Source: an uncultured Pelagibacteraceae bacterium
GTDB taxonomy: Bacteria > Pseudomonadota > Alphaproteobacteria > Pelagibacterales > Pelagibacteraceae
Direction: 5' to 3'
Assembly: GCA_902581925.1 (NCBI GenBank)
Contig: CACHQB010000002.1
Location: forward strand, 1 to 64,000
DNA length: 64,000 bases
Numbering within the stretch: the stretch's first letter is position 1; every line of letters begins with the position of its first letter. Below are positions 3,545-27,939 of this stretch, in pieces. Made by a program: the position numbers and the translations under genes. The notes under the pieces were generated by a model. That model was not told the origin of the DNA. It made no database searches and saw only the letters and a list, made by a program, of their open reading frames with translations.

Positions 3545-4900
3545 ATGAGTTTAGATATTTTTTTAACAAATAATCTTACTAACAAAAAAGAAAAATTTAT
3601 TCCTCAAGATAAAAATAATGTAAGAATGTATGTTTGTGGCCCAACTGTTTATGATGATCCACATATTGGTAATGCTAGACCAGTTGTTGTATTTGATGTT
3701 CTTTTTAAAATTTTAAAAAATGAATATCCAAATGTAACTTATGTCAGAAATATTACAGATGTTGATGATAAAATAATAAAATCATCAAATGAAAAAAATA
3801 TTTCTATTTTAGATCTTACAAAAAAAATTACTCAAAACTTTAATGAAGATTGTATTTATCTAAATTGTGAAAAACCAACTCATGAGCCTAAAGCAACTAA
3901 GCATATTCCTGAGATGATAGAAATGATCTCTGAATTAATTAAAAAAGGATTTGCATACGAAAACAACAAGCATGTTTATTTCGAGGTAAAAAAATTTGAA
4001 GATTATGGTCAATTATCAAATAAAAAATTAGATGAATTGGTTGCAGGATCAAGAATTGAAGTAAGCGATAATAAAAAAAATCCTGAAGATTTTGTTCTAT
4101 GGAAACCATCAGAAACAGACGAGCCATCATGGGATTCACCTTGGGGCAATGGAAGACCTGGTTGGCATTTAGAATGTTCAGCAATGTCTAAAAAATATTT
4201 AGGAAAAGAATTTGATATTCATGGTGGAGGTATTGACTTGTTGTTTCCTCATCATGAAAATGAAATAGCTCAATCAAGATGTGCAAATGATAGCAAGGCG
4301 TTTGCTAATTATTGGTTGCATAATGCTTTCATAACTATGTCAAATGAAAAAATGGCAAAATCTCAAGGTAATATTTTAAAAATTAAAGATTTTAGAAATA
4401 ATAAAAGTGGTCAAGTTTTAAGATTGGCTTTAATGAGTGCACATTATCGACAGCCACTCGATTGGAATGATAAACTTTTAGAGGACTGTGAAAATACAAT
4501 TAGTAAATGGTATAATGTTTATTTAAACATTGAAAGAAAAACTAAAATTTCAGATGAAATTTTAAAACCTCTTCTCGATGATTTAAATACTCCAGGCTAT
4601 ATTGCCAATTTGCATAAATTGTATGAGAAAGCATCAAAAGGTTCTGATGAAGATAAAAGGCTATTTATTTCTGCATGTCATTTTATTGGATTATTAAATG
4701 AAACTAAAGAGGATTGGTTAAAATTTAAGAAAAGCAAGGTATCAATTTCTGAAAATGAAATTTTAATTAAAATTAATAAAAGAAATGAGGCTAGATTTAA
4801 TAAAAATTATGAGGAAGCTGATAATATAAGAGATGAGCTTTTAGACAAAGGTGTTTTAATAGAAGATAAAGATGGTAAAACGGTCTGGAAATTTAAATGA
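3545..4900 (+). CDS. cysS: Cysteinyl-tRNA synthetase
   Basis: MYVCGPTVYDDPHIGNAR, GWHLECSAMS, DIHGGGIDLLFPHHENEIAQS, KMAKSQGN. Confidence 0.98.
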   Translation: MSLDIFLTNNLTNKKEKFIPQDKNNVRMYVCGPTVYDDPHIGNARPVVVFDVLFKILKNEYPNVTYVRNITDVDDKIIKSSNEKNISILDLTKKITQNFNEDCIYLNCEKPTHEPKATKHIPEMIEMISELIKKGFAYENNKHVYFEVKKFEDYGQLSNKKLDELVAGSRIEVSDNKKNPEDFVLWKPSETDEPSWDSPWGNGRPGWHLECSAMSKKYLGKEFDIHGGGIDLLFPHHENEIAQSRCANDSKAFANYWLHNAFITMSNEKMAKSQGNILKIKDFRNNKSGQVLRLALMSAHYRQPLDWNDKLLEDCENTISKWYNVYLNIERKTKISDEILKPLLDDLNTPGYIANLHKLYEKASKGSDEDKRLFISACHFIGLLNETKEDWLKFKKSKVSISENEILIKINKRNEARFNKNYEEADNIRDELLDKGVLIEDKDGKTVWKFK

Positions 4901-22795: not shown

Positions 22796-22904
22796 TAAAA
22801 AAATTTTACTTATTCCTCTTGTTCAATTATAAATATTAGCGTAAACACTCATGAAATTCATTAATGCCCTCGTGGTGAAATTGGTAGACTCAAAGGACTT
22901 AAAA
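22796..22904 (+). repeat. Repeat copy A: tRNA-Leu promoter region plus tRNA-Leu(UAA) 5' half (tRNA part 22866-22904)
   Basis: Matches the intact tRNA-Leu upstream region and first 39 nt of the tRNA (gccctcgtggtgaaattggtagactcaaaggacttaaaa) with few differences, then diverges in the anticodon loop. Confidence 0.95.
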
Positions 22905-22927
22905 GCCGAGGGATAGAAGTTAAAGTC

Positions 22928-22957
22928 AGTCCATAGCAGTCCAAGGTAGTCTAAACA
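22928..22957. repeat. Unit 1 left-end phased boxes: 3 x 10 bp (agtccatagc agtccaaggt agtctaaaca)
   Basis: AGTC at 22928, 22938 and 22948, exact 10-bp period. Confidence 0.8.
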
Positions 22958-23028
22958 TACTATAAAATCTCTTAAGTTTAATCTGGCTTTCAATTAATAT
23001 TGAAAAATAAGAACTATTAATTTGTTCA

Positions 23029-23060
23029 GACTATTACAGGACTATTACATAGAGAGATAA
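23029..23060. repeat. Unit 1 internal direct repeat: 11-bp doublet plus AGAGAGATAA
   Basis: gactattacag gactattacat agagagataa; matches 25725-25756 with 3 mismatches in 32. Confidence 0.9.
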
Positions 23061-23077
23061 TATCATATATTTTTATT

Positions 23078-23866
23078 ATGAAAAACATTCTACTAAATTT
23101 GGTTATTATTTTTATTTTACAATTATTTAGTGTTGTCAATGCAGAGACAGATAAATATAGCAAGTCTGATTTAGATCTAATTAATAAATTTAGTGATTAT
23201 GAAAAAAATTGTAAGCCTGTTGAAAGTAAAATATCTGCAAAACGTGTAATATGCATTAAAGTAACTGATGTTTTGGATCTGGGTGAATTTAGAGAAATCC
23301 AATCTTTTCCAGAGGGAATGTTAAAACAAAAACTTAATTGGACTATGCTTTCTAAAAAAGCAGGGCAAGAAGTCTATTCACTTTTTGTTAAAAGAGGTCC
23401 GCAGTATCATGCTAGATACCCTGGTGCTATGATTTTAGGAATGAGTTGGTACGAGATATTTTATTTAAATCAGTTAAAAAAAAACAAGAAAGTAATTGAA
23501 AGATTTATAACTTTTGGTCCAGATAATTATAAGAAATATAACAACCCTAAAGATCCATTAAATTCAATTAAAGCAAAAAATTTTCCTAAAAAACTTTTTC
23601 AAGAAGATGTGAGAAAGATATCTAAATTAATTAATAACAATAAAAGTAAAATTAAAATGCGAGAAGCATTAGGTTTTAGCAACGAAGACAAAATTGAGGA
23701 TGTGATTAAAAGTCAGTGGATACTTGGAAATTTTTTAAACAACGATAAACTCAAAGCAAAAAAAGTAATACTAGATCCTGAATTAAAAAAAAGAAAGATT
23801 TTAATAGCAAGATATAAAACAGCATTATCAAGGTATAAAAAGAAACTTGAAGAGAAAACAAACTAG
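23078..23866 (+). CDS. Hypothetical exported protein (cargo of unit 1)
   Basis: 262 aa, signal peptide MKNILLNLVIIFILQLFSVVNA; no family recognised. Confidence 0.75.
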   Translation: MKNILLNLVIIFILQLFSVVNAETDKYSKSDLDLINKFSDYEKNCKPVESKISAKRVICIKVTDVLDLGEFREIQSFPEGMLKQKLNWTMLSKKAGQEVYSLFVKRGPQYHARYPGAMILGMSWYEIFYLNQLKKNKKVIERFITFGPDNYKKYNNPKDPLNSIKAKNFPKKLFQEDVRKISKLINNNKSKIKMREALGFSNEDKIEDVIKSQWILGNFLNNDKLKAKKVILDPELKKRKILIARYKTALSRYKKKLEEKTN

Positions 23867-23868
23867 TT

Positions 23869-25698
23869 ATGAATAGTTATTTAAAAATATTTGTATTATT
23901 TTTACTAGTTGGTTTTAATGGTTCATTAAAAGCTCAAACTTTAGAAGAGCTATCTTCTGAAATAAATGAAATTAGAGAAGAAATTTCAAACCTAGATAAA
24001 AGTTCAAATATAGAGGCTATAAAAATTGATAAGTCACTTAAAGAATTAAATAAAGTTTTAGACTTCGTTGAAAAGCAGGTTGATACGAACGATATTGATA
24101 CAGCAATATCAAGCTTAAATATTGCTGAAAAAACTATTCAAGATATTTCAAAAGCTATTCCTGAATTATATTCAGTAGAAAAGGTTAAAGAAGGTAAAGA
24201 GTTTCCTGTTGAGCAAATTCAAGAAGTTATGATTATTTCAAAGAAAATAAAAAAAACAAAAATAAACAAAAATATAAAAATTTCTGAAGATATTATAAAT
24301 GTTAAATCTAAAGGCCTAGATGTTTTAGAGATATCTGATAGTATAAATCAAATAGGTATTAAAACTATTGATAGAAAAGAAATAATTAAATCAATAACAT
24401 TATCTAATCTAACAAATCCAACTTTAAGCGCAAAAGGTAAAAATCTTAAAAATTCTTTAAAGTCAGCAGGATTTTCTGATGATGAAATAAAGGATACTTT
24501 ATATGCCGCTGGCGAAGTCAACAGTCCAACTCTAAGAGGTAATTGGGCTGACAAGCTTAGCCCTCAAGGTCATCGCATTTATGTAAGTTTAGAAAGTGCT
24601 GGATTTTCAGATGCTGAAATAAGAGATGGAGTGTTTGGTGCGGGTGAGGTCGAAACACCAACATTAACAGGAACTTGGAAAGATGAATTAAGTCCTAGAG
24701 GTCATCGCATTTATGTAAGTTTAGAAAGTGCTGGATTTTCAGACTCTGAAATAAGAGATAAAGTTTATGCAGCGGGAGAAATTGATACACCAACATTAAC
24801 AGGAACTTGGAAAGATGAGTTAAGTCCTACAGCTCATGGTATTTATACAAGCATGGAAGATGGTGGTTTTTCAGATGCAGAAATAAGAGATGCACTTTAT
24901 GCAGCAGGAGAAATTGATACACCAACACCAACAGGAACTTGGACAGATGATTTAAGTCCAAAAGCATTTGGTATAGCGTCCTCAATGAAGGCAGGTGGTT
25001 TTTCAGATGATGAAATAAGAGATGCAGTTTATGCTGCAGGAGAAATTGACACTCCAACACTAACAGGAACTTGGACAGATGAGTTGAGCTCAACAGGGTT
25101 TGGTATAGCGTCCTCAATGAAGGCAGCAGGCTTTTCAGATGATGAAATAAGAGATGCAGTTTATGCTGCAGGAGAAATTGACACTCCAACATTGGACGGA
25201 ACTTGGAAAGATGAATTAAGTTCTGCAGGACATGGAATAGCAAAAAGTATGGAAGCAGCTGGATTTGATGATAATGAAATAAGAGATGCAGTTTATGCTG
25301 CAGGAGAAATTGAAACCCCAACATTGGACGGAACTTGGAAAGATGAATTAAGTTCTGCAGGACATGGAATAGCAAAAAGTATGGAAGCAGCTGGATTTGA
25401 TGATAATGAAATTAAAGATGCTGTTTACGCAGCAGGAGAAATTGATGCCCCATCTTTAACTGGTAGCTGGAAGGATGAACTAAACTCAGCTGGTCATGGT
25501 ATTGCTACTGCGATGGAGTCGGCTGGATTTAGCCAAGATGAAATAAGAGATGCTGTTTATGCTGCTGGTCATATTGATTCACCAACTCAAACTGGCACTT
25601 GGATGGATGAATTATCTCCTCAAGAACATGGTGTTGCTACTAGTTTAAAATCGGCTGGCTTTTCAGATCAAGAAATAAAAGATCACTTTGGAAAATGA
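23869..25698 (+). CDS. Exported tandem-repeat protein (cargo of unit 1)
   Basis: 609 aa, signal peptide MNSYLKIFVLFLLVGFNGSLKA, coiled-coil-like N-terminal region, then ten GF(S/D)xxEI motifs at a 44-aa period. Confidence 0.85.
   Translation: MNSYLKIFVLFLLVGFNGSLKAQTLEELSSEINEIREEISNLDKSSNIEAIKIDKSLKELNKVLDFVEKQVDTNDIDTAISSLNIAEKTIQDISKAIPELYSVEKVKEGKEFPVEQIQEVMIISKKIKKTKINKNIKISEDIINVKSKGLDVLEISDSINQIGIKTIDRKEIIKSITLSNLTNPTLSAKGKNLKNSLKSAGFSDDEIKDTLYAAGEVNSPTLRGNWADKLSPQGHRIYVSLESAGFSDAEIRDGVFGAGEVETPTLTGTWKDELSPRGHRIYVSLESAGFSDSEIRDKVYAAGEIDTPTLTGTWKDELSPTAHGIYTSMEDGGFSDAEIRDALYAAGEIDTPTPTGTWTDDLSPKAFGIASSMKAGGFSDDEIRDAVYAAGEIDTPTLTGTWTDELSSTGFGIASSMKAAGFSDDEIRDAVYAAGEIDTPTLDGTWKDELSSAGHGIAKSMEAAGFDDNEIRDAVYAAGEIETPTLDGTWKDELSSAGHGIAKSMEAAGFDDNEIKDAVYAAGEIDAPSLTGSWKDELNSAGHGIATAMESAGFSQDEIRDAVYAAGHIDSPTQTGTWMDELSPQEHGVATSLKSAGFSDQEIKDHFGK
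24450..25695 (+). repeat. In-frame tandem repeat, 132-bp (44-aa) period, about 9 full units plus a partial
   Basis: GF codons at about 24469, 24601, 24733, 24865 and onward, spaced 132 bp; two adjacent units (about 25190-25284 and 25322-25416) almost identical at DNA level. Confidence 0.95.
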
Positions 25699-25724
25699 TT
25701 TATCTTTATAGGATAATCTGGGAT

Positions 25725-25756
25725 AACTATTACAAGACTATTACACAGAGAGATAA
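25725..25756. repeat. Unit 1 terminal direct repeat: 11-bp doublet plus AGAGAGATAA
   Basis: aactattacaa gactattacac agagagataa; partner of 23029-23060. Confidence 0.9.
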
Positions 25757-25868
25757 ATTAAAAAAATTTTACTTATTAGACTTGTTCAATTATAAATATT
25801 AGCATAAATACTCATGAAATTCATTAATGCCCTCGTGGTGAAATTGGTAGACACAAAGGACTTAAAAT
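25746..25868 (+). repeat. Repeat copy B: right-end box, tRNA-Leu promoter and tRNA-Leu(UAA) 5' half (tRNA part 25829-25868)
   Basis: 123 bp matching 26996-27118 with 3 mismatches; tRNA similarity stops in the anticodon loop after cttaaaat. Confidence 0.97.
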
Positions 25869-25890
25869 AGTTTGAATTGAAGGATTTCCG

Positions 25891-25920
25891 AGTCTCTAAT
25901 GGTCTCTAATAGTCTTAATC
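25891..25920. repeat. Unit 2 left-end phased boxes: 3 x 10 bp (agtctctaat ggtctctaat agtcttaatc)
   Basis: AGTC/GGTC/AGTC at 25891, 25901 and 25911, exact 10-bp period. Confidence 0.85.
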
Positions 25921-25991
25921 CCTTATAATCCTATATGTTTTTAAATAATTAAATTATTTTTATTGGAAAATCTTTATAATTAATTTTCAGT

Positions 25992-26023
25992 TTCTCGGAA
26001 CAAACTCGGAAACAGAGAGATAA
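25992..26023. repeat. Unit 2 internal direct repeat: 11-bp doublet plus AGAGAGATAA
   Basis: ttctcggaaca aactcggaaac agagagataa; matches 26975-27006 with 3 mismatches in 32. Confidence 0.9.
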
Positions 26024-26050
26024 ATTTATGTTATATATTAACTCTTAAAT

Positions 26051-26233
26051 ATGAATAAAATTTTAGACTCTAAATTTATACCTTTAATAATATTTATTAT
26101 TTTAGTCCTTATAAACATAGATGCTCACCTTAATGATGGCTCTATTACTGGTTTGAATAGAGAGGGTTATATATTACCATTTGCAACTATAATAGCATTT
26201 ATCTATTCATTGGGTGTTTTTTTCAAAAAATGA
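26051..26233 (+). CDS. Small membrane protein, unit 2 cargo 1
   Basis: 60 aa with two hydrophobic segments (FIPLIIFIILVLINI; ILPFATIIAFIYSLGVFF); ATGA overlap with next gene. Confidence 0.6.
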   Translation: MNKILDSKFIPLIIFIILVLINIDAHLNDGSITGLNREGYILPFATIIAFIYSLGVFFKK

Positions 26234-26646
26234 AAATAAATAGTAATATACTAATATTTAGAAACTTAATAAAATATTATTTTTTAATATTCATTTTATT
26301 TTTAATTAAGGCATTTTTTTTCCCAGATGTATTTGTGCCAGAAGATTTAAAGTTTGTAATTAGAAAATATGAAGATGAAGTAATGACATACAGCTATCCA
26401 ATTGTATTAGCTGGAATATTATTTGCATTTATCTACCTTTTTTCATTTTTTATGCTTTATAAATTAAAAAAGAATTGGAGGATTATCCATATAATATCGT
26501 TAATTGTTACTTTGGTTTGCTTACTTGAGTACAGGTTTTCATTTGTTGACTCATTTGATTTTATATTTGAGGGTTTAATGTTTATGTTAGATGGTGCCAT
26601 AATATCTTTAGCTTTTTTTGGGACTGTTTCAAAAGAATTTAAATGA
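26230..26646 (+). CDS. Small polytopic membrane protein, unit 2 cargo 2
   Basis: 138 aa with about four predicted TM segments; ATGA overlaps with both neighbours. Confidence 0.65.
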   Translation: MKINSNILIFRNLIKYYFLIFILFLIKAFFFPDVFVPEDLKFVIRKYEDEVMTYSYPIVLAGILFAFIYLFSFFMLYKLKKNWRIIHIISLIVTLVCLLEYRFSFVDSFDFIFEGLMFMLDGAIISLAFFGTVSKEFK

Positions 26647-26945
26647 AGAAATCAATATTCGAGATTATTTTTATAATTTTTACATCCTTAGTACTTCTTG
26701 GTGTAACTTATTATTCAATAAATGGCAGTTTTGTACTTTGGAATAAAGAACCAACTTTCATAGATATATCTAATAGATCTGGATCGGGTACCCTTTTGAT
26801 AATTGTTAGCAATTTTCTTTATAGTATGTTTGGCATTTATGCCAATAAAGTAGCATCTGTTTGTTTATTCGCATTAGGTTTTTACTCATTTATCGTTTTT
26901 GTTTTATCAACAATAGGTAATATTGAAAATTTTAAAAAAAGATGA
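26643..26945 (+). CDS. Small membrane protein, unit 2 cargo 3
   Basis: 100 aa, hydrophobic termini (IIFIIFTSLVLLGVTYYSI; SVCLFALGFYSFIVFVLSTI); ATGA overlap with upstream gene. Confidence 0.65.
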   Translation: MKKSIFEIIFIIFTSLVLLGVTYYSINGSFVLWNKEPTFIDISNRSGSGTLLIIVSNFLYSMFGIYANKVASVCLFALGFYSFIVFVLSTIGNIENFKKR

Positions 26946-26974
26946 ATTAGATATCATCTAGGATTTTATAGGAT

Positions 26975-27006
26975 AACTCGGAACTAACTCGGAAACAGAG
27001 AGATAA
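26975..27006. repeat. Unit 2 terminal direct repeat: 11-bp doublet plus AGAGAGATAA
   Basis: aactcggaact aactcggaaac agagagataa; partner of 25992-26023. Confidence 0.9.
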
Positions 27007-27118
27007 AATAAAAAAATTTTACTTATTAAACTTGTTCAATTATAAATATTAGCATAAACACTCATGAAATTCATTAATGCCCTCGTGGTGAAATTGGTAG
27101 ACACAAAGGACTTAAAAT
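26996..27118 (+). repeat. Repeat copy C: right-end box, promoter and 5' half of the intact tRNA-Leu
   Basis: 123-bp match to copy B. Confidence 0.97.
27018..27046 (+). promoter_or_regulatory. Putative sigma70-type promoter of tRNA-Leu (copies at 22805-22833 and 25768-25796)
   Basis: TTTACT, 17-bp spacer, TATAAA; same spacing in all three repeat copies. Confidence 0.6.
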
Positions 27119-27164
27119 CCTTGCCGCTTGCGGAGTGCCAGTTCGAGTCTGGCCGAGGGCACCA
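27079..27164 (+). tRNA. tRNA-Leu (anticodon UAA), CCA encoded
   Basis: Acceptor GCCCTCG/CGAGGGC; anticodon arm AAGGA-CTTAAAA-TCCTT; variable arm; TTCGAGT T-loop; ends ACCA. Confidence 0.97.
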
Positions 27165-27168
27165 CTAA

Positions 27169-27939
27169 ATGACTAAGCTTCAAATTATTTCAGATAAAAA
27201 CAAAAAATCCTTAAGTATTAAAAATTTATTATTAAACAAAATTAAAACAAATTTGTTTAAAAAAGAAAATCTAATCATTGTTATTGGCGGAGATGGTTTT
27301 ATGCTTCAAACACTTAAAAAGAACAAAAATTCTAAAAAACATTTTTATGGGATAAATTCTGGGAGTTATGGATTTCTTATGAATAAATTTTCATCAAAAG
27401 ATATCATAAAAAATTTATCAAAAGCAAATTTAGTTACAATTTCTCCTCTGGAAATGATTGTTAAAAATAAAAATAATCAAACAAAAAGATCTATAGCAAT
27501 TAATGAAGTATCTGTTCTTAGACAAAGTAGACAGGCTGCATCACTATCGATTAAACAAGGTTCAAAACAAATAATTAAAAAATTAGTCTCAGATGGTGTA
27601 TTAGTATCAACACCCGCAGGAAGCACTGCATATAACCTTTCAGTACATGGACCTATCTTAAGTCTTCATTCAAAAAAATTATCAATATCACCCATAAGTG
27701 CTTTTAGACCTAGAAGATGGAAGGGTAAAATTGTAAATGATAAAACTAAAATTGTTATTACAAATTTAAATCCATCAAAAAGACCCATAAGTGCTGTTGC
27801 AGATAATTTAGAAGTAAGAAATGCTAAATCAATTACAGTTAAAACTAATAATAAAATAAAGTTTAATCTTCTTTATGATAAAAACAGAAGTCTACAAAAA
27901 AAGATTAAAATTGAACAATTAAGAAGAGAGACCAGTTAG
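27169..27939 (+). CDS. nadK: NAD kinase
   Basis: IVIGGDGFMLQTLKK, GINSGSYGFLMN, NEVSVLRQSRQAA, STPAGSTAYNLSVHGPIL. Confidence 0.95.
   Translation: MTKLQIISDKNKKSLSIKNLLLNKIKTNLFKKENLIIVIGGDGFMLQTLKKNKNSKKHFYGINSGSYGFLMNKFSSKDIIKNLSKANLVTISPLEMIVKNKNNQTKRSIAINEVSVLRQSRQAASLSIKQGSKQIIKKLVSDGVLVSTPAGSTAYNLSVHGPILSLHSKKLSISPISAFRPRRWKGKIVNDKTKIVITNLNPSKRPISAVADNLEVRNAKSITVKTNNKIKFNLLYDKNRSLQKKIKIEQLRRETS

Follow-up and report, generated by a model that had tools for sequence, protein, structure and literature searches.

Tandem integrase-less cargo units at tRNA-Leu(UAA) in a Pelagibacteraceae genome, with autonomous relatives as candidate helpers

The tRNA-Leu(UAA) locus and its two cargo units

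The window, a 64,000-nt stretch of DNA from an uncultured Pelagibacteraceae bacterium, contains three blocks in which the tRNA-Leu(UAA) promoter is followed by the 5' half of the tRNA gene. Read directly, they lie where the first-pass annotation had placed them, at 22796-22904, 25746-25868 and 26996-27118, with start-to-start spacings of 2963 and 1250 bp. Only the third continues into a whole tRNA: ARAGORN reports one complete tRNA-Leu(TAA), at 27079-27164, and tRNAs are the only Rfam families above the gathering score in the window. Copies B and C are 98% identical, with 3 differences in 123 positions. The 39-nt 5' halves start at 22866, 25829 and 27079, have 1, 0 and 0 mismatches to the tRNA, and all stop in the anticodon-loop heptamer CTTAAAA (ends 22904, 25867 and 27117). 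A genome-wide search found no further copy of promoter plus 5' half elsewhere in the window's genome, and nothing element-like was seen upstream of copy A. The same architecture recurs in dozens of relatives, so the blocks are not a product of chance. A group I intron was considered and rejected, since the complete copy is uninterrupted and a 3' half is missing from the partial ones. The features of the array are as follows.

22796-22904, forward strand: copy A, native promoter region and tRNA-Leu(UAA) 5' half (22866-22904), a left attachment relic by alignment to the other copies
22898-22904, forward strand: CTTAAAA anticodon-loop heptamer, left boundary of unit 1 and putative overlap region, where nearly all 5'-half copies across loci stop
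22905-25867, forward strand: unit 1, cargo cassette of 2963 bp with a class 1b left arm
22905-23028, forward strand: unit 1 left arm, GCCGAGGGATAGAAG..., with AGTC repeats at about 11 bp, common to many units of other genomes
23029-23060, forward strand: unit 1 ITER_L (GACTATTACAG GACTATTACAT) and AGAGAGATAA, at L+183, matching unit 1 ITER_R
23078-23866, forward strand: unit 1 cargo ORF, 262 aa, secreted-protein-like, no Pfam or NCBIfam match
23869-25698, forward strand: unit 1 cargo ORF, 609 aa, signal-peptide-like start and tandem 44-aa repeats (...AGFSDDEIRDAVYAAGEIDTPTLTGTW...) from 132-nt direct repeats, repeat-type matches only
25707-25757, forward strand: unit 1 right end, TATAGGATAATCTGGGATAAC motif, ITER_R (AACTATTACAAGACTATTACAC) and AGAGAGATAAA
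25746-25867, forward strand: copy B, element-borne promoter and tRNA 5' half (25829-25867)
25868-27117, forward strand: unit 2, cargo cassette of 1250 bp with a class 3 left arm, closest to the tRNA
25992-26024, forward strand: unit 2 ITER_L (TTCTCGGAACAAACTCGGAAAC) and AGAGAGATAAA
26051-26233, forward strand: unit 2 cargo ORF, 60 aa, membrane-like
26230-26646, forward strand: unit 2 cargo ORF, 138 aa, membrane-like
26643-26945, forward strand: unit 2 cargo ORF, 100 aa, membrane-like
26959-27007, forward strand: unit 2 right end, TAGGATTTTATAGGATAAC motif, ITER_R (AACTCGGAACTAACTCGGAAAC) and AGAGAGATAAA
26996-27164, forward strand: copy C, element-borne promoter and complete tRNA-Leu(UAA) (27079-27164), the sole intact target
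27169-27939, forward strand: NAD kinase, right-hand flank, beside the tRNA in the relatives read

Beyond the tRNA repeats, the units have a second layer absent from the first-pass annotation: repeat pairs of 11-bp period, with AGAGAGATAA, near both ends and matched within a unit. Each such ITER is a pair of near-identical 9-11 bp repeats, followed at the left end by AGAGAGATAA. From left to right, a unit comprises the 5' half, a left arm, an ITER at +183, genes from about +217, a TAGGATTTTATAGGATAAC-like motif, an ITER at -84, an AT-rich stretch, the promoter and the next 5' half. Left arms belong to a small number of sequence classes and contain AGTC repeats at intervals of about 11 bp. The ITER varies between units and agrees within them: ITER_L and ITER_R match at 17.4/22 within a unit and at 12.3/22 between units, and the observed sum was reached in none of 20,000 permutations.

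In a set of 38 units whose ends are clear, including two autonomous ones, ORFs occupy 83% of the unit, the first starting at about +217, and 109 of the 110 cargo ORFs of at least 90 aa lie on the tRNA strand. These strand counts leave out the 2177-bp 'units' of L047, L066 and L069, which contain reverse-strand resident genes and have no element ends; an earlier count without that filter gave 106 to 8. Two units depart from the standard layout, one of 267 bp with a single ITER and no cargo (L060) and one with two cargoes and a third ITER between them (L081). An inverted TATAGGAT/ATCCTATA motif was also observed at the right and left ends of cargo units, for example at 25707-25727 and 26959-26977 of the window.

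Cargo proteins change from unit to unit and include type I restriction-modification subunits, an EcoRI-type methylase, pilins, an autotransporter, trypsin-like and caspase-like proteins, a carbamoyltransferase and many secreted proteins without known function. No integrase was found in cargo, either among the 25 most frequent of 90 Pfam families or on reading the ORFs, and the cargo ORFs of the window units include no tyrosine recombinase of their own. One single unit (L045:3828-9514) holds a run of about ten pilin-like genes.

Variation of the locus among relatives

About 80 further loci were fetched beyond the window. A query with promoter plus tRNA gave one to four copies in many genomes of the same genus. 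Counting the window, 73 loci with a full tRNA-Leu(UAA) were compared; in 39 of them one or more 5'-half copies lie upstream, and nearly all partial copies end at the same heptamer. An element right end lies upstream of 12 of 14 inner 5'-half copies, 8 of 39 leftmost copies and 39 of 73 full tRNAs, against 15 of 4000 random positions; at several loci it adjoins the tRNA with no detectable left half. Mean mismatches to the tRNA are 0.72 for leftmost (chromosome-side), 0.21 for inner and 0.03 for full copies. That the leftmost half is the most decayed and mostly lacks an element end is expected if it represents the original site and the inner halves were brought in.

Of 121 genomes, 14 contain the right-end pattern, and every one of these belongs to the window's genus; the sister family and a reversed control each gave 0. 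Only Pelagibacteraceae or Pelagibacterales records appear among the matches listed, and from this taxonomy we judge the host to be a Pelagibacteraceae relative. The matches come mostly from single cells and from many independent assemblies, which makes an assembly artefact unlikely.

The array had initially been read as the outcome of successive integrations into one tRNA, and every check proposed for that reading that was run supports it. Empty sites exist: L094 and L254 run from a resident gene via a different promoter into an intact tRNA. Single-unit alleles are present among relatives, as is alternative cargo between tRNA-Leu(UAA) 5' halves, and cargo, unit number and left neighbours all vary. 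L052 has the same left flank as the empty sites up to the 5' half, where a unit begins. By this comparison, the tRNA promoter of carriers is element-borne. L050 set against L082 indicates that later units are added between older ones and the tRNA.

An integrase-less unit coding for an 831-aa protein is 96-99% identical in nucleotide sequence in L050, L081 and L082. Its right flanks, on the NAD-kinase side of the tRNA, are only 76-86% identical, and its left flanks have no blastn match to each other. The unit adjoins the tRNA in L081 and L082; in L050 another unit intervenes. As the unit is far more alike than its flanks, we conclude that units move.

Each boundary duplicates part of the tRNA gene, and the tRNA is restored at one side. 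The units do not fit the usual tRNA-island design, however, since they carry the tRNA promoter and 5' half and not the 3' end. The comparison of the array with tyrosine-recombinase elements that use tRNA genes and leave partial copies holds for the target but not for the recombinase, which the units lack; that label belongs to the helper, not to the unit. With attL and attR kept, no integrase, and an autonomous relative with the same attachment site, the units have the make-up of trans- or cis-mobilizable (CIME-like) elements.

Autonomous relatives and circular forms

Relatives of the helper integrase were found in 6 of 399 genomes. A tyrosine recombinase of their own is encoded by the autonomous elements L249, L275, L276, L277, L336 and L337. 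The L249 element (G120; 8.8 kb) occupies the same place at the tRNA and encodes a 551-aa tyrosine integrase, a 766-aa primase-helicase (DUF5906 and AEP domains), a PDDEXK-like protein and small proteins; among these small proteins, Xis-like candidates are recognised by size and position and have no family match. Its left arm begins with GCCGAGGGATTCACAGACGAGTCAGTCC, common to cargo units such as that of L035. Elements with integrase and primase stand at tRNA-Leu(UAA) in L249, L275 and L277, the last lying between a cargo unit and the tRNA. Other integrase relatives are located at tRNA-Ser(UGA) (L276), or adjoining tRNA-Ser(GCU) (L278), and one more is broken (L279). In L276 the tRNA-Ser half stops at CTTGAAA, the corresponding anticodon-loop position.

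The autonomous elements carry ITERs as well. In L249, L275 and the IMG/VR elements L335-L337, the integrase gene contains ITER_L within its opening codons, and ITER_L matches and varies with ITER_R. The integrases of L335, L336 and L337 are 90-94% identical, and here the ITER switches between CTAGGGTC and CTAGGATC on both sides together. ITER blocks are also shared with cargo units: L249 matches L035 at 32/34, and L275 matches L043 and L071 at 32/35, compared with shuffled-core maxima of 27 in 200 shuffles. The L335-L337 ITERs match cargo units more loosely, and those of L276 and L277u2 have no cargo match beyond the shuffles. No helper was found in the window's own genome, which is 83% complete, and none of the helpers identified has the window's ITER types (CTATTAC and CTCGGAA). 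The inverted TATAGGAT/ATCCTATA motif was not seen in autonomous elements, which argues that cargo units are not simple deletion derivatives of helpers.

A profile of the helper primase matched four IMG/VR contigs at about 48% identity over the full length. L336 (7,799 bp) and L337 (7,972 bp) end in exact repeats, of 99 and 123 bp respectively, as is typical of circular assemblies. Both hold the attP expected from the model, composed of the right ITER, the tRNA-Leu 5' half, CTTAAAA, the left arm and the left ITER in the integrase gene. The circle junctions anticipated for excised units were thus recovered for autonomous relatives and for no cargo unit; viral contigs searched with the cargo right-end pattern gave 0 matches, and a degenerate ITER pattern matched none of them. 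A query with the helper integrase likewise had no match in phage records, plasmid records or viral contigs. Since the primase profile found circles among the viral contigs, the integrase result there is a false negative, and similar negatives are to be read with care. The helper circles come from a viral contig collection, and presence there is no proof of packaging by a helper phage, the hallmark of phage satellites (VEIME, PICMI, PICI).

In an alignment of five integrase sequences, R379, R491 and Y524 are kept. The AlphaFold2 model of the integrase (mean pLDDT 74, pTM 0.44) matches Tn1549 integrase, XerA, XerH and lambda integrase in the fold of its catalytic part. Foldseek additionally returned weak matches of this model to the arm-binding domains of HAI7, HPI and P4-like integrases (3ju0, 3jtz and 3rmp; E 0.13-0.22, about 16-17% identity). 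These modelled similarities would fit the ITER as an arm-type site and are no proof of it.

Several other elements came to light. In G039, a further element that encodes an integrase (451 aa) and a primase-helicase (768 aa) lies between NAD kinase and tRNA-Thr (L251:3470-9581). L289:7662-15210 encodes a 509-aa integrase distantly related to that of the helpers, together with satellite-like genes, and has no adjoining tRNA. At the same tRNA-Leu(UAA), L248 (G072) has terminase- and tail-like ORFs and a 349-aa integrase; it shares only GACTTAAAA and the tRNA 3' part, so its integration follows another design. With this distinct architecture, in which the 3' part of the tRNA alone is kept, the prophage-like region (L248:1-20000) was rejected as a parent. 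L414 (half at 3739 of the reversed locus) and L415 are IMG/VR phage contigs with a complete tRNA-Leu(UAA) in a replication-type gene cluster; they match the attP pattern only because they hold the whole tRNA and were rejected as attP circles.

A model for unit movement, and known systems

That mobile cassettes have inserted serially and precisely at tRNA-Leu(UAA) is well supported by these sequence comparisons. The comparisons also support that units have moved horizontally, that their ITERs are matched, that autonomous relatives use the same target and that the helper attP exists as a circle. In the model that we favour, an excised unit would be a circle with an attP made of the right-end motif, ITER, promoter, tRNA-Leu 5' half to CTTAAAA, left arm with AGTC repeats, and ITER. 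For the window, the cargo circle junction would join AGAGAGATAAA...promoter...GGACTTAAAA to TAGTTTGAATTGAAGG (unit 2) or GCCGAGGGATAGAAG (unit 1). A tyrosine integrase from a related autonomous element would act in trans, with crossover between attP and the intact tRNA-Leu(UAA) in the anticodon loop of the latter. On the far side, the previous promoter and 5' half would be left as a relic, and the promoter and 5' half of the unit would rebuild the tRNA. The sole intact target would again lie beside the tRNA, so that cassettes stack with the newest tRNA-proximal. ITER pairs, about 130 bp either side of the crossover, could serve as arm-type sites of the integrase or its excision factor and mark which helper can move a unit. 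The relic promoter may transcribe the cargo.

Mobilisation in trans by autonomous relatives, with the ITER as a helper tag, is the best-supported candidate mechanism; in it, the helper integrase would act on cargo units and the ITER would be its arm site. For the reading as a whole, of non-autonomous cassettes inserted serially, mobilised in trans and bearing a helper-specific arm site, we estimate a probability of about three in four. Counted against it are the missing cargo-unit circle, the rarity of helpers and the weakness of the arm-domain matches.

Units might instead spread mainly by RecA homologous recombination on the repeated promoter and tRNA, the site-specific integrations being ancient and no helper active today. 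Copies B and C, 98% identical over 123 bp, are alike enough for unequal crossover; the cargo-free unit of L060 and the three-ITER unit of L081 resemble products of recombination between repeats, and the right ends that adjoin the tRNA without a left half point the same way. Such exchange does not, however, explain why the two ITERs of a unit match, and it sits poorly with helper circles that hold an attP and with the 831-aa unit, whose near-identity drops to 76-86% just beyond the tRNA and whose left flanks are unrelated. We consider it improbable as the main route, although recombination between the repeats of about 120 bp could also lead to gain or loss of units. Less probable again is that the recombinase is not a helper's but a Cre/Xer-like tyrosine recombinase of the core genome (317 aa, G000:C2:114426-115376). 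No other protein of the window's genome matches PF00589; its gene lies about 87 kb from the tRNA, and, found in about 50 of the 70-odd same-genus genomes searched, it would usually be at hand. Yet the right-end pattern was not found near it, it is missing from some genomes that are about 90% complete and have element right ends (e.g. G037 and G056), and autonomous elements that have the same ends encode an integrase themselves. A static tandem duplication, ancestral and without mobility, has nothing beyond the repeats in its favour; it is contradicted by the differences in cargo, unit number and left flank between genomes and by the empty sites, and we give it next to no credence. The core recombinase (L004:1114-2067) is divergent and widespread in the genus, and the sister family has two strong Xer-like genes.

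Cis-mobilizable elements are derivatives of conjugative elements. As described for such elements and their accretion (PMC5704250, PMC7563491), the SAR11 units are flanked by att sites, lack an integrase and stack beside autonomous relatives, and L277 displays a cargo unit next to an autonomous element in this way. They differ in their terminal motif, which seems to be missing from the helpers, and in being much more numerous than these.

Tycheposons of Prochlorococcus combine a tyrosine recombinase, a tRNA target and cargo in marine streamlined hosts. The SAR11 cassettes share the target, cargo and host traits but are without the recombinase. Tycheposons span 4-200 kb, according to PMC10872708. 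Closest in logic, by analogy, are the Dehalococcoides ssrA islands and the additive tRNA islands of Alteromonas and Methylopumilus. The portions of PMC3146451 available describe 31 tandem ssrA islands, 16 with an integration module and the others suggested to be cis-mobilizable; like the SAR11 units, they lie in tandem at one structural RNA gene, are bounded by its direct repeats and vary in cargo between strains. They use the serine recombinase DsiB and a tmRNA 3'-end repeat, whereas the SAR11 system has a tyrosine integrase and a promoter plus 5'-half repeat. SAR11 cassettes are mostly 1-6 kb and in one orientation, and those portions of PMC3146451 describe no matched element-specific arm repeats. 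In Alteromonas (PMC4119200) and at the Methylopumilus tRNA-Lys repeats (PMC10872708), cassettes similarly accumulate at a conserved tRNA with partial tRNA repeats; the repeats are of the tRNA 3' end where the available text states it, and no end anatomy, arm tags or helper is given there.

Integrons and CALIN arrays (PMC11389934) share compact one-orientation cassettes, serial capture at one site and, on the favoured model, integrase-less arrays mobilised in trans. In SAR11, by contrast, no integron integrase was seen, recombination is targeted to a tRNA gene and the helpers encode an integrase of the general phage/ICE type; on reading ORFs and ends, the cargo lacks an integrase and the unit ends are tRNA halves and arm repeats. 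P4-like integrases (PDB 3rmp, 3jtz, 3ju0) join an arm-binding N-terminal domain to a catalytic domain, a layout that the modelled helper integrase may share, by a weak structural match, whereas the SAR11 attP arms are 11-bp-period pairs that vary between elements. No description of such a system in SAR11 was found in the open literature searched. We tentatively suggest, at somewhat less than even odds, a tRNA-anchored, integron-like form of gene capture in SAR11, in which one-orientation cassettes carrying a replacement tRNA promoter are inserted serially by many rival helper integrases, and end repeats act as exchangeable address labels that choose the helper for each cassette and the pairing of ends within a stacked array.

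A defined site, cassette and identifiable helpers would make gene gain and loss readable from single cells and reads at one tRNA. SAR11 are the ocean's most abundant bacteria, and the cargo, since it includes restriction-modification systems, pilins, an autotransporter and proteases, likely matters when cells meet phages and grazers. From the matched end tags one could learn, as in a natural experiment, how an integrase selects the correct two ends when tandem sites are nearly identical.

Related ends occur at other places too. Cargo-type right ends also precede tRNA-Ser(UGA) in L298 and L307. L316:1500-1780 (G044:C1) has the element right-end motif and an ITER with no tRNA beside it, a relic or another site. 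In other genus members, L090, L091, L092 and L253, different right-end types (e.g. CAGTTAGTCACC twice or CTAGTGTAGTT twice) stand before tRNA-Leu and probably represent a second lineage of such elements.
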